Assembly (NCBI RefSeq): GCF_001261735.1 | Contig: NZ_CVRP01000014.1 | Location: 62,001 to 126,000, forward strand | Source: Dysgonomonas sp. BGC7 | GTDB lineage: Bacteria; Bacteroidota; Bacteroidia; Bacteroidales; Dysgonomonadaceae | Direction: 5' to 3' | DNA length: 64,000 bases | Shown here: in pieces, positions 17,375 to 22,208 of the stretch | How the letters are laid out: each line of letters opens with the position of its first letter | Position numbering within the stretch: the stretch's first letter is position 1 | Notes under the pieces: model-generated | Seen by the model: the letters and a program-made list of their open reading frames with translations, nothing else | The model's database searches: none | What the model was told of the DNA's origin: nothing | Made by a program: the position numbers and the translations under genes

Positions 17375-18223
17375 ATGGAAGATAGCAACCAAGGATTATC
17401 CTTTTGGGATCATTTAGAAGAATTTCGATGGACACTAATACGGTCTATCGCTGCTCTGTTTATTTTTGCAATTATAGCATTTGCATTTATGCCATATATA
17501 TACGACAGTATAATAATGGGACCTACGCGTGCCGATTTTTTTCTATACAAATACCTTTGTGTAGCAACTTCAGCAGTACCTTTTTTACCTGATTTCTGTG
17601 ACGACACTTTTCATGTCAATATAATAAATATAAACCTTGCGTCACAGTTTTTCAGACATATGACTACCTCTTTCTGGTTGGCTCTTATACTGACTTTTCC
17701 TTATCTGGCATTCGAAATATGGAGATTTATAAGTCCTGCCCTCTACGAGAACGAGAAGAAAAGTATACGCTGGGTATTTCTTTTCGGAACCATCATGTTC
17801 TTTTTGGGATGCGTTGTGGGGTATTCGCTTGTGTTTCCGATGACATTTCGCTTTTTGGCAACCTATCAGTTGAGTGAAGTCATTGTAAATGAGATCTCTT
17901 TGGACTCATACATGGATAATTTTCTCATGCTCATATTTGTGATGGGGATCGTATTCGAACTACCACTCTTATCGTGGTTACTCTCTCAACTAGGATTACT
18001 GAACAGATCGTTCTTCAAAAGATTCAGAAGACATGCCATTGTAGGGCTATTGGTATTATCGGCAATCATCACCCCTTCGGGAGACCCTTTTACCCTATCG
18101 GTAGTATTTATTCCTTTGTATTTTCTCTATGAGTTAAGTGCTTTCTTTGTAAAGCCTGCACCAAAAGAGGAAGAAGAGGCAGATGAAGAACCTGACGAAA
18201 ATCCGGATATTCAGATTCAATAG
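17375..18223 (+). CDS. tatC: Sec-independent protein translocase TatC
   Basis: 282 residues with six predicted membrane helices. The N-terminal SFWDHLEEFRWTLIRS is the TatC signature (HLEELR-type), where the twin-arginine signal docks, and the conserved SPALYENEKKS with Glu follows the second helix (FEIWRFISPALY). An extra periplasmic stretch (about 50-85, with two Cys: PDFCDDTF and YKYLCVATS) is longer than in E. coli TatC, and the C-terminus is an acidic tail (EEEEADEEPDENPD). It is the last gene of the tatAC unit and is followed by a terminator. Confidence 0.95.
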   Translation: MEDSNQGLSFWDHLEEFRWTLIRSIAALFIFAIIAFAFMPYIYDSIIMGPTRADFFLYKYLCVATSAVPFLPDFCDDTFHVNIININLASQFFRHMTTSFWLALILTFPYLAFEIWRFISPALYENEKKSIRWVFLFGTIMFFLGCVVGYSLVFPMTFRFLATYQLSEVIVNEISLDSYMDNFLMLIFVMGIVFELPLLSWLLSQLGLLNRSFFKRFRRHAIVGLLVLSAIITPSGDPFTLSVVFIPLYFLYELSAFFVKPAPKEEEEADEEPDENPDIQIQ

Positions 18224-18257
18224 TATGGATCAGAAGCAAAACCTCATATAATTTATA

Positions 18258-18288
18258 GAAGCTGTAGTTTCTACTACAGCTTCATTTT
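18258..18288 (+). terminator. Terminator of tatAC
   Basis: GAAGCTGTAG (18258-18267) pairs perfectly with CTACAGCTTC (18274-18283), followed by ATTTTTA. Confidence 0.8.
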
Positions 18289-18374
18289 TAAGATAGCATT
18301 TTGTTAGAATACTCTATTCCCAACCTGCCACAAAGACAAATAGTGGCGCTGTAAATCAATAGCATACACTCATA

Positions 18375-18406
18375 TTTGTTTAGGCGGGTAAATATTACTA
18401 TCTTTG
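18375..18406 (+). promoter_or_regulatory. Promoter of the RNA-repair cassette
   Basis: Both consensus elements are perfect: TTTG at -33 (18375-18378) and TATCTTTG at -7 (18399-18406), separated by 20 bp. Transcription would start near 18412, leaving a leader of about 140 nt before the RNA ligase gene. Confidence 0.75.
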
Positions 18407-18411
18407 TAGCG

Positions 18412-18555
18412 ATTAATAACAATCGTTTATATAACAAAATGTCATGTAATTGTTTAGTTTACATAGCGGAAATCTTTCCGCATTTATCAAGACCGTAATA
18501 GATAATTTGCGGGTCTTGCTATTATTGTATTCTATCAACTAAAAACAATTACATT
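18412..18555 (+). promoter_or_regulatory. Structured 5' leader with short ORF, RNA-repair cassette
   Basis: Three inverted repeats follow one another: ATGTAA/TTACAT (within 18444-18464), GCGGAAA/TTTCCGC (18466-18472/18475-18481) and CAAGACC/GGTCTTG (18488-18494/18512-18518). A 19-codon ORF (18439-18498, starting MSCNCLVYIAEIF) covers the first two hairpins and stops inside the loop of the third. This resembles a leader with translation-coupled structure; its function is unproven. Confidence 0.45.
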
Positions 18556-19248
18556 ATGTTATCACAGAAATATGGTCGTACATACCATTTCCCCTTTTCG
18601 CCGGGAACAACTAGCGACGACCGCATCAATCATACATACTGGAACGATATCCAACAAATAGAGACAATCGTTCATACAGAAAAATTGGATGGGGAAAATA
18701 ACTGCCTCAATCGCTTTGGAGTATTCGCTCGTTCACATGCAGCACCAACAACCTCAGCTTGGACAAATCAGATACGAGAACGCTGGCAATTAATCAAGCA
18801 AGACCTAGGCGACATTGAGATATTTGGAGAAAATCTATATGCAATACATTCCATCGAATATAAGCAAATAGAGTCTTATTTTTACGTATTTGCCGTGCGC
18901 TGCCTGGACAAATGGCTATCATGGGAAGAAGTTAAGTTCTATGCTTCAATATTTGATTTCCCCACCGTCCCGGAATTAAAGATCGAATCTGTTACAAATC
19001 TATCGCAACAAACCTTGCAAGAGCAGGTTCTTAGCTTAGCACAAGAGTGCTCTGTATTTGAATCAACAGATATACTCACCGAGAATAGCTGTACACGAGA
19101 GGGTATTGTTACCCGCAACACAGAGGAATATCTAACTGACCAATTTCCACGCAATGTATTTAAGTATGTTCGGAAAGGGCATGTTAAAACAAATGAGCAT
19201 TGGACTAGAAATTGGCAGCGTGCAAAGCTGATATGGGAGAAACGATAA
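18556..19248 (+). CDS. ATP-dependent RNA ligase family protein
   Basis: 230 residues, essentially one nucleotidyltransferase domain. Motif I is TEKLDGENN with Lys43 as the expected AMP-linked lysine. The motif III region is IEIFGENLYAIHSIEY (about 90-108), motif IV is EGIVTR (Glu182) and motif V is KYVRKGHV (Lys203, Lys207). The protein ends soon after motif V, without the C-terminal domain of T4 Rnl1/Rnl2 or the OB fold of DNA ligases, which places it with compact RNA ligases. It would seal 3'-OH/5'-phosphate RNA ends. The next gene, 18 bp downstream, supplies the end-healing activities needed to make such ends. Confidence 0.85.
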   Translation: MLSQKYGRTYHFPFSPGTTSDDRINHTYWNDIQQIETIVHTEKLDGENNCLNRFGVFARSHAAPTTSAWTNQIRERWQLIKQDLGDIEIFGENLYAIHSIEYKQIESYFYVFAVRCLDKWLSWEEVKFYASIFDFPTVPELKIESVTNLSQQTLQEQVLSLAQECSVFESTDILTENSCTREGIVTRNTEEYLTDQFPRNVFKYVRKGHVKTNEHWTRNWQRAKLIWEKR

Positions 19249-19266
19249 AGAAAGGAGATATAAATT

Positions 19267-20379
19267 ATGACTTGGAAAATAACACAAAATAAAGAATGGG
19301 CATCCCTCGAAAAGGAGTTTTCATGGGTTGCCGATATGCATGATGTTCTTCAACACAAAGAGCACCATGCAGAAGGAAATGTTGCTATACATACCCGTAT
19401 GGTCTTAGACGAATTAGTAAAGATCGCTGAATACCAACATCTATCTGAACAAGATAAAGAGATATTATGGGCTGCTGCATTATTGCATGATGTAGAGAAA
19501 CGCTCTACTTCACAAGATGACGGGTATGGCAATATATCGGCAAACGGGCATGCCCGAAAAGGAGAGTACACAGCTAGGACAATTCTGTTTAAGGATGTCC
19601 CTACCCCTTTTCACATCCGTGAGAACATTGCATCTTTAGTTCGATTCCACGGACTGCCTCTCTGGCTGCTAGAAAAGGATGAGCCGGCAAAGAAGATACA
19701 GGAAATATCAATGAGGCTCAATACTCAGCACCTGAGAATATTGGCTGAGGCAGATGCCAAAGGAAGAATATGCGATACTAAGGAGTCGCTAATAGAATCT
19801 CTCGAACTATTCCAGCTGTTTTGTAACGAGCAGGAATGTTGGGGCAAATCGCTCGAGTTTGCGACACCTAATTCGAGGTTCCAGTATTTTAATACTATAG
19901 ACGGATATATAGGATATGTTCCACATGATGACTTCAAAAGTGAGGTGATTCTTCTTTCAGGCCTACCGGGCATGGGAAAAGATCATTACATACAGTCATT
20001 AAAGTCGGAGATGCCAATAATAAGCCTCGATGCTATTCGTCGCAAGTATAAGTATAGCCCAACAGACAGGTCTGCAACAGGCAGAGTGGTACAAGAAGCT
20101 AAGGAGCAAGCAAGGAAATACCTGAGAAACGGTCAGAATTTTATATGGAATGCAACCAACATAACGAAGCTAATGCGTATGCAGCTTGTTGACTTATTTA
20201 CAACATATAACGCAAAGGTAAAGATTGTATATGTAGAGAAACCGTATAATACATGGAGGGAGCAGAACAAAAACAGGGAATACGCATTACCAGAAAACGT
20301 ACTGGATAAAATGTTGAGTAAATTAGAAATACCTCAACTAACAGAGGCTCATGAAGTGGAATATATAATAACTGGATAA
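19267..20379 (+). CDS. HD-domain phosphohydrolase fused to polynucleotide kinase (HD-Pnk-like)
   Basis: 370 residues in two parts. The N-terminal HD domain (about 25-185) has the metal-site histidines and aspartates: His in AIHTRM, His74-Asp75 (LLHDVEK), His128 (VRFHGLP) and Asp163 (EADAKGR). The C-terminal P-loop kinase domain (about 225-370) has GLPGMGKDH (Lys238, Asp239), DAIRR as the acceptor/base region, NATNITK and a lid-like WREQNKNRE. The same domain order occurs in Runella slithyformis HD-Pnk, a characterised enzyme that removes 2',3'-cyclic or 3'-phosphates and phosphorylates 5'-OH ends. Paired with the adjacent ligase it makes a complete break-healing and sealing unit. The RNA target is unknown. 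Confidence 0.85.
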   Translation: MTWKITQNKEWASLEKEFSWVADMHDVLQHKEHHAEGNVAIHTRMVLDELVKIAEYQHLSEQDKEILWAAALLHDVEKRSTSQDDGYGNISANGHARKGEYTARTILFKDVPTPFHIRENIASLVRFHGLPLWLLEKDEPAKKIQEISMRLNTQHLRILAEADAKGRICDTKESLIESLELFQLFCNEQECWGKSLEFATPNSRFQYFNTIDGYIGYVPHDDFKSEVILLSGLPGMGKDHYIQSLKSEMPIISLDAIRRKYKYSPTDRSATGRVVQEAKEQARKYLRNGQNFIWNATNITKLMRMQLVDLFTTYNAKVKIVYVEKPYNTWREQNKNREYALPENVLDKMLSKLEIPQLTEAHEVEYIITG

Positions 20380-20434
20380 ACTTTTAAGACAATATATTGT
20401 TTATATTCAAAGTATTAACATTAACACATTTATC

Positions 20435-20824
20435 ATGTACAAACAGATTTTATTCGTATTTACTATGATTCTATTTCTTGGATCATGTAACAGTTCTGAA
20501 AAGACAGAAAAGCTGATCATAGCATCTCAGCAAGGAGACTGTATAGGAGTTGGCCCTATGAAATGCCTCTTAGTAAAGAAAGAAGGACAAGCAGAATGGG
20601 AGTTCTTTTACAGTAATATTGAAGGGTTTAATTATGAGCCGGGCTATGAATATGTATTAGAGGTTAAAGTGGACAAGGTAGAGAATCCTGCCGCAGATCA
20701 ATCAAGCTCGAAATATACCCTTGTAAAGCAAATATCTAAAGAACAGAAAACCTCAGAGAACCTACCTCAAATACAGGAAGAAGAGATAATTGAAGAAATA
20801 GTGTCTACCGATTCTATACAGTAG
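20435..20824 (+). CDS. DUF4377 domain lipoprotein
   Basis: 129 residues. Lipoprotein signal ending LFLGSCNSS (Cys18), then a single DUF4377 domain with its signature order: GVGPMKCLLVK, then EWEFFYSNIEGFNYEPGYEY, VLEVKV and SSKYTLVKQISK. The C-terminal tail is acidic (EEEIIEEIV). DUF4377 is related to the META-type heat-shock lipoprotein domains in domain databases and has no assigned reaction. It is 55 bp behind the RNA-repair pair, with an AT-rich gap, so it may be a separate transcription unit. A bidirectional terminator follows. Confidence 0.82.
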   Translation: MYKQILFVFTMILFLGSCNSSEKTEKLIIASQQGDCIGVGPMKCLLVKKEGQAEWEFFYSNIEGFNYEPGYEYVLEVKVDKVENPAADQSSSKYTLVKQISKEQKTSENLPQIQEEEIIEEIVSTDSIQ

Positions 20825-20849
20825 AAGAGTTGGATATCAGATAAATTAA

Positions 20850-20880
20850 AAAGCGGTACTTGTAATGAGTACCGCTTTCT
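20850..20880. terminator. Bidirectional terminator
   Basis: AAAGCGGTACT (20850-20860) pairs perfectly with AGTACCGCTTT (20868-20878) between two convergent genes, with A-rich and T-rich flanks on the two sides. Confidence 0.8.
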
Positions 20881-20882
20881 CT

Positions 20883-22208
20883 TTATTCAAACAAGAATGG
20901 TTTTGTAACTTCCAGCTTTGCCCGTTTCTCTTCAAAGAAGAACCTCTCTTCATTAAAAGCAGGCTTTAACTGATCAAACCATGTTGCTTTCGGATTATAC
21001 TCTGCAAAGAATGGGACATCTACCCATTTCGGATTACGTCCCTGTATAAAGCGAAGCACAAAAATCTTTTCACCTCTTACCTCCTGTACTCCAAGCACCT
21101 GAATCTTACCAGCATGGTCACTCATACTTGGGCCTCTTACAGTACGACAAAGACCGCTAACCTTACTATATGCTCTTCGAAATATCTGCCAGCACTTATC
21201 CAAAGGTAGCTCGAAATAATGCTTTGAGCCAGTATCTCTGGCTATAAACATATAATAAGGAACACAGCCAAGATCAACTTGCTCGCGCCACATACTCGCC
21301 CACAATTCAGGCTTGTCATTTATATTGCGAAGCAAAGGAGACTGAGTCCGTATCTGAGCTCCGGTAGAGCGAATACGGGATATTGCTTGCTTCACTGCAT
21401 CGGTAGAAAGCTCGCGAGGATGATTGAAATGGGCCTGAATGGAAAGGCTTTTGCCCGAAGCAGCTACAAGTTCAAATAGCTTTATTACATCGTCACTATC
21501 TTTATCTGTTAAATATCTATATGGCCAATATGCCAGCGATTTAGTACCGATACGTATAGATCTGATGTGTCCGAACTCAGGTTCGAGCAATGGTCTGATA
21601 TAAGCCTCAAGTACAGAGGCGTTCATAACCATAGGGTCTCCTCCTGTAAACAAAACATCGGTAACCTCCTTGTGTATACGCAGATACTTTAACAGAAGAT
21701 CCGATTCTTTCATTGCAAATTTCAACTCGTTCATTCCTGAAAATTGAGGCCAACGAAAGCAGAAAGTGCAATAGGCATGGCAGGTCTGTCCCTGACTAGG
21801 AAAAAACAATACAGTTTCGGGATATTTGTGTTGAATACCCTTTAGTTTTATTTCGCCCAAAGAAGGAACATTATGTTCCTGTCCGGCAGGGTTAGGGTTA
21901 AGGGATAAACGAATCTGTTTCACTTTTTCATCAATCACATCCTTTTCCGCATTTGCATCCAGTAGTTTCTCTATCGTAGAATAATGTTTCTTCTCCAACA
22001 TTCCCCGACGAGGAAAGTTTAAAGTAAATATAGGATCTGTTTCTACATTATCCCAGTCGATTAATTCATTTACTACATAGTTGTTTGTTTTAAACGGTAA
22101 CACTCTGCCTACAACCTCGATTTCCTTTATCATTTCTTCGGAAAGCGATGATATTTGAGGAATTGTACGAAAATTGTGTAGAGTGAATGATCTTAACTGA
22201 TTACTCAT
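20883..22208 (-). CDS. KamA-family radical SAM protein (lysine 2,3-aminomutase-like)
   Basis: 441 residues. The radical-SAM cluster motif is CHAYCTFC (Cys143, Cys147, Cys150), followed by FTGGDPMV (SAM-binding GGD) and the KamA-type TQSPLLRNINDKP (about 288-300), where the substrate channel lies. The PLP-binding region of true lysine 2,3-aminomutase (PGGGGK) is altered to SMSDHAGKI, though a lysine (Lys368) remains at the expected place. It also lacks the C-terminal zinc-cysteine extension of clostridial KAM. It may therefore use another substrate than lysine. No lysine-fermentation genes are nearby, and it appears to be monocistronic. Confidence 0.82.
   Translation of the reverse strand: MSNQLRSFTLHNFRTIPQISSLSEEMIKEIEVVGRVLPFKTNNYVVNELIDWDNVETDPIFTLNFPRRGMLEKKHYSTIEKLLDANAEKDVIDEKVKQIRLSLNPNPAGQEHNVPSLGEIKLKGIQHKYPETVLFFPSQGQTCHAYCTFCFRWPQFSGMNELKFAMKESDLLLKYLRIHKEVTDVLFTGGDPMVMNASVLEAYIRPLLEPEFGHIRSIRIGTKSLAYWPYRYLTDKDSDDVIKLFELVAASGKSLSIQAHFNHPRELSTDAVKQAISRIRSTGAQIRTQSPLLRNINDKPELWASMWREQVDLGCVPYYMFIARDTGSKHYFELPLDKCWQIFRRAYSKVSGLCRTVRGPSMSDHAGKIQVLGVQEVRGEKIFVLRFIQGRNPKWVDVPFFAEYNPKATWFDQLKPAFNEERFFFEEKRAKLEVTKPFLFE

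Follow-up and report, generated by a model that had tools for sequence, protein, structure and literature searches.

A folded, conserved leader RNA that seems to hide the ligase start of an RNA ligase/HD-Pnk operon in Dysgonomonas

Introduction

The HD-Pnk enzyme of Runella slithyformis, which reportedly (J Bacteriol) is often encoded with a putative ATP-dependent ligase, has the same two-domain order as a protein encoded in the DNA studied here, a stretch of 64,000 nucleotides (nt) from Dysgonomonas sp. BGC7 (contig NZ_CVRP01000014.1, positions 62,001 to 126,000, forward strand), hereafter the window. In the window, the HD-Pnk gene follows a gene for an ATP-dependent RNA ligase (Rnl) and both are preceded by a structured leader RNA, which is not known to be part of the Runella description. 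The gene pair is already known, a homologous operon of Deinococcus radiodurans having been published: DRB0098-DRB0099-DRB0100 encodes an HD plus kinase protein and an ATP-dependent ligase-like protein (PMC1997131). The Deinococcus operon has a third gene, with weak macro-domain similarity, and was proposed for DNA repair (PMC1997131), whereas the window pair, with 18 nt between its genes and a DUF4377 gene next, is without a third gene of that type.

Two other systems invite comparison. The window pair has the heal-and-seal logic in common with the Pnkp-Rnl-Hen1 RNA repair complex (PMC4411300), but no Hen1 or Pnkp-type protein was found among the genes scanned beside it and TIGR04075 gave 31 bits versus 750. 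Ribosome repair by RtcB2-PrfH is also RNA repair, and such genes adjoin the pair in several relatives; its chemistry differs, 3′-phosphate and 5′-hydroxyl ends being sealed directly (PMC9223846), and neither rtcB2 nor prfH was found in the window's genome.

With the T4 Rnl2-type RNA ligases, the window ligase has the nucleotidyltransferase domain in common. The motifs of this domain are named I, III, IV and V. Full-length T4 Rnl2 chains among our matches have 317–319 residues and the window ligase has 230; from its length, the span of the PF09414 match and its model, it lacks the C-terminal domain that T4 Rnl2 needs for sealing. To our knowledge, the triggers of bacterial RNA repair are known for few systems. 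One example is RtcR, whose induction of RNA repair involves damaged tRNA (PMC7790460). What appears to be new here is a folded and widely conserved leader that, judged from its sequence, seems to hide the start signal of the ligase.

Results

The main parts of the operon are these:
18430..18555, + strand: conserved structured 5′ leader RNA (fold, covariation, and a covariance model hit at 18430-18558).
18556..19248, + strand: ATP-dependent RNA ligase (Rnl), 230 amino acids (aa), without a second domain (open reading frame (ORF), PF09414, alignment, model and fold match).
19267..20379, + strand: HD-Pnk, 370 aa, with an N-terminal HD phosphoesterase and a C-terminal P-loop polynucleotide kinase.

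Positions 18556-20379 thus encode an RNA ligase and HD-Pnk end-healing pair, as the first-pass annotation of this DNA had noted from the letters alone; the structured leader at 18430-18555 had escaped it. The leader segment folds better than shuffled versions of itself (z −4.62, none of 200 equal), and its 5′ arm carries CAUGUAA, within which a start codon is directly followed by a stop. Its elements are as follows:
18444..18449, + strand: start-stop AUG-UAA, within the conserved 5′ arm 18441-18457.
18445..18454, + strand: 5′ strand of helix P1, pairing with 18544-18553, two bases before the ligase ATG.
18466..18481, + strand: helix P2, 18466-18471 with 18476-18481, two-sided changes in 5 of 6 pairs.
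18490..18516, + strand: helix P3, in two parts, two-sided changes in 7 of 9 pairs.
18439..18498, + strand: possible 19-codon leader ORF, MSCNCLVYIAEIFPHLSRP, overlapping AUG-UAA in a different frame.

Alignment of 12 leaders from the window's family gave a consensus of 25 base pairs, with two-sided changes in 12. All five covariation measures exceeded those of shuffles (0/500 each); the covariation score was 0.335 versus 0.145 in shuffles and fell to 0.03–0.12 when the partners were slid by 1–3 columns. A covariance model of these leaders produced 17 hits in 16 of 101 family genomes, one of them in the window's genome. Twelve hits were the model's own sequences, 11 lying before an intact ligase and one before a broken one. 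The five new hits comprised two before a solo HD-Pnk (G297 and G315), two remnants from which the pair is gone (G296, which retains the first ligase codons, and G324) and one taken as chance (G318, E-value 0.034). Two genus genomes with the pair, G313 (long leader) and G319 (decayed), gave no model hit. We have high confidence that in this family the leader is a genuine element of the operon, with a conserved structure. A known Rfam leader or riboswitch was rejected, since no family matched the leader at gathering score in the window or in six relatives. A literature search by title and start of abstract, with most subscription papers outside its coverage, found no description, and the leader is apparently undescribed so far.

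Beyond the family, 60 of 86 loci, a set that includes duplicates (e.g. L256 and L283), have CAUGUAA upstream of the ligase at a distance of 60–230 nt, versus 1.6 expected from mononucleotide shuffles. At gene-called loci, CATGTAA occurs at this distance upstream of 31/56 ligase starts versus 12/495 other genes. In the G249 family, called Spirosoma/Runella-like here from the identity of some of its leaders with those of the named loci L077 and L068, the ligase is present in 32 of 222 genomes searched and the motif in 29 of 30 loci fetched, about 84–97 nt before the ATG (three of these 29 leaders were already known from the earlier locus set). All ten Morganellaceae loci inspected carry AUGUAAUAC 95–113 nt before the ATG; three other Enterobacterales are without it and one metagenome-assembled genome (MAG) has GUGUAAUAC. 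TGTAAT precedes 1/17 viral ligases (1.7 expected), 5/37 of other phyla (1.7) and 2/8 of Saprospiraceae and similar (0.8). In the marine Pseudomonadota L122 and L123, AUG-UAA occurs in CGAUGUAAUCG 89 nt before the ligase, with GAUACAUCG nearer to it, as if the same leader idea were at work.

Alignment of the whole G249 family (28 distinct leaders) gave a single helix, 5′ arm GYCAU with ligase AUGGC, of five pairs and weak (−1.3 kcal/mol). Because only this start-codon helix emerged, the family was split by eye according to start-codon type (MALS, MIS, MAIS), and these three subsets were analysed with RNAalifold together with Chitinophaga-like, Pedobacter and Proteus sets (4–8 sequences each; L289, L293, L295, L304, L305 and L311 lie outside all subsets, and a Sphingobacterium set of three was folded outside the covariation test). 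The consensus pairs the whole ligase AUG in five of the six sets and two of its bases in Pedobacter. In the MIS set covariation was strong, none of 500 shuffles reaching either measure, as it was for Chitinophaga (2/500 on each). Moreover, in 54 distinct leaders the duplex between the arm and the tail scored −10.93 in cis versus −10.09 when partners were swapped within groups (standard deviation 0.23, 0/5000). Comparison of these sequences suggests, with fairly high confidence, that the leader is one element across Bacteroidota and, with moderate confidence, that the same element is present in Morganellaceae.

Predicted openness of the ligase start agrees with this anatomy. It averaged 0.37 (n=29) versus 0.51 for other starts at the same loci (n=171, called mechanically; one-sided P 8e-5), and 0.58 for HD-Pnk starts (n=27). 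Covering AUG-UAA in silico raised ligase-start openness from 0.29 to 0.51, with higher values in 46 of 58 leaders and lower ones in three (L284-L286), whereas a cover placed 40 nt downstream left it at 0.30, higher in 4 of 58. The long leaders L063 and L253 were dropped from both analyses.

The proteins themselves bear out what the letters had suggested, namely a compact ligase with motifs I, IV and V and no C-terminal domain, followed 18 nt downstream on the same strand by an HD phosphoesterase fused to a P-loop kinase. PF09414 matches ligase residues 37-205 with 103.2 bits (cut-off 27), and motifs I, Ia, III, IV and V of an Rnl2-like RNA ligase are all present. Across 28 aligned sequences, K43-D45-G46 (motif I), R59, E92, E182-G183 (IV) and K203 (V) are invariant. 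The AlphaFold2 model is compact (mean predicted local distance difference test, pLDDT, 90). No solved structure matched the ligase by sequence at E≤0.01. By fold, 31 PDB matches were obtained at E≤0.001. They are RNA ligases (Naegleria, archaeal and T4 Rnl2 proteins and a domain of a fungal tRNA ligase), apart from two chains of an Aquifex protein that carry the label putative DNA ligase and rank above the other DNA ligases (E about 1e-3 and above). In HD-Pnk, PF01966 spans residues 39-164 (31.2 bits, cut-off 22) and PF13671 residues 227-356 (84.2 bits, cut-off 27; P-loop GLPGMGKD). H34, H42, H74-D75, K78, H95, D163, K238, D255 and R258 are invariant across the 28 sequences, and a metal-binding role presumably falls among H34, H42, H74, D75 and D163. 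The model has a mean pLDDT of 94, and the closest PDB fold to the kinase half is Clostridium thermocellum Pnk. Nonsynonymous divergence (dN) from four relatives is 0.13–0.23, indicating constraint, with a synonymous (dS) output of −1 taken as saturation.

Conserved adjacency, which the first-pass annotation had proposed as a check, was found. Of 296 phylum genomes sampled evenly, three contain the ligase; HD-Pnk matches occur in 38, with both halves matched only in the same three and the other 35 partial and weak, and the two genes are adjacent in 3/3. Of 25 genomes of the genus, the same 13 encode both the ligase and a full-length HD-Pnk, and 12 of these carry the two in one array (in G297 the genes are on separate contigs); the spacing is at most 30 nt in nine and larger in three, two of which have an extra gene in between. 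In G307 (L239:7975-8787) the intervening gene encodes a protein of about 270 aa with a HEFGHY motif, SprT-like at a Pfam E-value of 0.03 (below cut-off), and G312 seems, by eye, to retain a short remnant of its start.

Among named genomes, the best 80 of at least 387 HD-Pnk relatives were used, adjacency being called by a distance rule: the ligase is just upstream on the same strand in 70/80 loci and just downstream in 2/80. The same rule gives adjacency in 7/11 plasmid loci and, among the viral loci (80 fetched, 29 inspected), in eight. In LR756500, the 462-kb record of an uncultured phage, the two genes (40 and 46% identity) are neighbours, and its ligase is extended at the N-terminus by a segment that, judged by eye, resembles HNH; fusions of HNH with Rnl2 have been noted (PMC7824862). 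A Runella MAG (L068) has an HD-Pnk homologue 51% identical to that of the window. MT835908, which matches the HD-Pnk C-end at 80% at a contig edge, gave no DNA match to the window at E 1e-5. In the tree, a supported set of 14 rows unites the window's family with L048; of the viral rows, four fall in other places and the fifth sits on a branch that is long and unsure. The presence of both genes in the same three of the 296 genomes, adjacent each time, and their adjacency in 70/80 named loci mark the pair as ancient.

Neighbouring ORFs were clustered over 140 loci. In the same-family genomes G304, G313, G315, G329 and broken G325, the pair has RtcB, PrfH-like and KptA genes as neighbours, the name PrfH being assigned here because the protein has an RF-1 domain, is 206 aa long and is encoded next to RtcB. 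G297 has the arrangement RtcB-PrfH-Rnl. RtcB and a PrfH-like gene also adjoin the pair in Serratia sp. Ag1, Mucilaginibacter and Crocinitomix MAG loci, and RtcB without PrfH does so in two Flammeovirgaceae. Pfam confirmed RtcB, RF-1, KptA, WYL, NUDIX, NADAR, ADP-ribosylglycohydrolase, DUF4291, TatD, macro and RlaP domains in representative neighbours. Across the 25 genus genomes, RtcB of the island type (E below 1e-200) occurs in nine (8/13 with the pair, 1/12 without), a PrfH-like protein (73–100% identity) in eight and KptA in nine. A search of the window's own genome found no island-type RtcB, PrfH or KptA; its two 32% matches to PrfH, in frames of 353 and 372 codons, were read as RF1/RF2. 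These neighbours agree with the published view of gene sets of this sort as repairing RNA cut in conflicts (PMC6514570, PMC9503650).

Discussion

How might the leader act? We think it likely that the operon serves RNA repair and is controlled after transcription through a structured leader of its own. In the proposed order, a promoter is followed by the leader folding back on the ligase start, the ligase and, close behind, HD-Pnk. The 5′ arm would pair at and before the ligase AUG, so that ligase translation would be low, and HD-Pnk translation would be held low too through coupling to it. That the leader acts as a translational repressor we propose with moderate confidence from this anatomy. 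Whatever sits on or breaks the 5′ arm would expose the ligase AUG; the releasing signal could be ribosome or RNA damage, a suggestion made with low confidence. By analogy with the biochemistry of their families, HD-Pnk would then act on the ends that a ribonuclease leaves, removing the 2′,3′-cyclic or 3′ phosphate and phosphorylating the 5′-hydroxyl. Sealing of the healed ends would fall to the ligase, with AMP bound at K43, the likeliest natural targets being ribosome-linked RNAs (tRNA or rRNA) cut by toxins.

That the pair serves RNA repair is suggested with high confidence by these comparisons. The RtcB, PrfH-like and KptA neighbours of relatives, together with the ligase fold, favour RNA over DNA, so that this part of the initial proposal (repair of RNA breaks) stands, for a pair that was already known. 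The same proposal had considered a standing repair or defence module, whereas the presence of the leader suggests a controlled response.

Conservation ties the leader to the HD-Pnk/Rnl operon of Bacteroidota, and probably to that of Morganellaceae, and the leader would be a second, RNA-based control of RNA repair. Its trigger would name the operon's natural substrate, left open by the Deinococcus work; ribosome and tRNA are suggested by the islands in which the two ways of sealing RNA occur together with PrfH-like and KptA genes.

A bolder version, which we consider unlikely, makes AUG-UAA a ribosome-damage sensor that switches the operon on. A healthy ribosome would start, terminate at once and leave, the 5′ arm re-pairing and covering the ligase AUG; one with a cut decoding centre would fail to terminate and stay parked on the arm, giving intact ribosomes access to the ligase start. 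The operon would then be turned on by the damage that it mends. This would fit the constancy of AUG-UAA (once GUG-UAA) alongside a perfect AUUAC partner in only 9/29 leaders (3.5 expected), and the rise in ligase-start openness when AUG-UAA is covered in silico. Caution is needed: a wobble-tolerant partner occurs in 28/29 leaders, the constancy of CATGTAA is partly by construction, since leaders were chosen by it, and CAU pairs with AUG in any case. PrfH, a likeness of which neighbours the pair in relatives, is reported to release fMet from cut ribosomes (PMC9223846).

Several observations weigh against an RNA-repair operon controlled by its leader. The Deinococcus homologue of the ligase became adenylated, yet it failed to seal DNA or RNA in vitro (PMC1997131). 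Some DNA-linked genes occur near the pair: an SSB-like cluster in four loci (L041, L052, L054, L055) and, in L244, L253 and remnant locus L276, a DNase related to TatD. In the window's family, covariation is borne by P2 and P3, and P1 is without such support there because it never varies; the arm/tail duplex is hardly better in cis than swapped (−9.76 versus −9.51). CATGTAA is absent at 26/86 ligase loci, including 11 Morganellaceae and the near-variants L084 and L243. Covariation was weak in four of the further sets, shuffles reaching the two measures 16 and 37 times in 500 for MALS, 17 and 17 for Pedobacter, 32 and 30 for MAIS and 88 and 88 for Proteus, and splitting the G249 family by eye favours finding folds. 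Pairing of the 5′ arm with codons 2–3 failed as a covariation argument (4235/10000 swaps did as well), and the pairing claim therefore rests on the whole arm-tail duplex. Finally, P values and shuffle counts are flattering because rows are related and some loci are duplicates.

Of the other explanations, autoregulation is a tentative contender: Rnl or HD-Pnk would bind the leader and repress, or reseal a cut leader. It agrees with the finding that all non-chance hits in the 101 family genomes belong to pair genes or their remnants, and that some precede solo HD-Pnk; the binding, however, is putative. It is unlikely that the pair is a phage-derived counter-defence cassette kept by the host to mend tRNA that anticodon nucleases have cut. 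Counter-defence through RNA repair by phages has been reviewed (PMC7824862) and both LR756500 and the viral loci with an adjacent ligase would fit, but no phage gene was seen near the window pair, the viral rows lie outside the supported 14-row set (the fifth being unsure) and TGTAAT before viral ligases is not above expectation. The defence role first suggested found no direct evidence, and membership in a known anti-phage system was rejected: PADLOC 2023 gave no hit for the ligase and two weak CARF hits (E 1.7e-4 and 3e-4) on part of the kinase half. Because phages carry the same genes, counter-defence is as likely as defence.

Quite improbable, in our view, is a pair that mainly mends DNA breaks, with HD-Pnk healing DNA ends and the ligase or LigA sealing them. 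A Deinococcus HD-Pnk mutant is said to have a radiation and mitomycin phenotype, which speaks for it. So do the strong induction of DRB0098-0100 by gamma-irradiation, the phosphorylation of a DNA oligonucleotide by DRB0098 (PMC1997131) and the DNA-linked neighbours named above; yet the ligase fold is closest to RNA ligases, and RtcB, PrfH-like and KptA proteins act on RNA or the ribosome. A leader-peptide attenuator, in which a ribosome stalled in the ORF of 19–21 codons (MSCNCL...) opens the ligase start, is very doubtful: the ORF is kept in 8/8 same-genus leaders translated (the window and seven loci chosen by hand) and its stop falls in P3 in the window, but it is not conserved in all members, being unseen by eye in leaders L245, L250, L254 and L255 and in the G249 family, though the latter keeps the same 5′ arm.

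Further features of the locus and its relatives

The flanking features in the window are these:
18258..18283, + strand: terminator-like hairpin after tatC, 11 pairs followed by ATTTTT.
18375..18406, + strand: candidate Bacteroidota-type promoter, seen by eye, TTTG at 18375-18378, 20 nt, TATCTTTG at 18399-18406.
20435..20824, + strand: DUF4377 gene, 3′ of HD-Pnk, with a terminator-like site at 20850-20878.

The promoter was judged against TTTG-N19-21-TAnnTTTG, which we take to be the consensus; a sigma-70 promoter scan found 8 sites versus 10 expected. Terminator-like sites in 18100-20900 numbered seven versus 1.6 expected in shuffles. DUF4377 follows the pair in seven genus loci, the window included, with one intervening gene in two of them, and may be co-transcribed with it. 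In about 3.6–5.7 kb fetched from each of 12 further genus genomes it was not found beside tatC, so that no clean insertion site was demonstrated. The four neighbouring proteins scanned in the window were TatC, DUF4377, a KamA-like radical SAM protein and a NYN-LOTUS protein; as first remarked, no toxin or phage protein was called among them, and no tRNA gene was found within the window. The NYN nuclease plus OST-HTH/LOTUS protein (window:22383-23141, other strand, 2 kb from the pair) is a possible RNase; in L249 and L251, a close relative (c89) is encoded not far from the solo HD-Pnk.

Several recurrent proteins accompany the pair elsewhere. The c85 protein (196–198 aa, for which Pfam gives nothing above cut-off) is seen repeatedly in RtcB-PrfH-KptA islands and, in one case, directly behind HD-Pnk (L239:9879-10475; L250:10338-10928; L255; L276; L277; L282). 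The c24 protein (about 240 aa or more; the tested member without Pfam match) adjoins RtcB in bacterial loci and in two viral ones that have HD-Pnk (L245:12449-13183; L053; L058; L279-L281; L128; L132). A 680-aa AAA plus peptidase M41 (FtsH-like) protein lies inside RNA-repair islands, between KptA and PrfH or c85 (L253:11743-13785; L276:4729-6762; L277:6834-8876). A methyltransferase cluster, c36, near the pair in L115, L116, L117 and L119 (one member scanned), might be a Hen1-like end-protector. In G329 (L254:9483-13991), one array 3′ of HD-Pnk encodes an NrtR-like NUDIX protein, radical SAM, NADAR, ADP-ribosylglycohydrolase and macro proteins, and resembles an ADP-ribose clean-up set.

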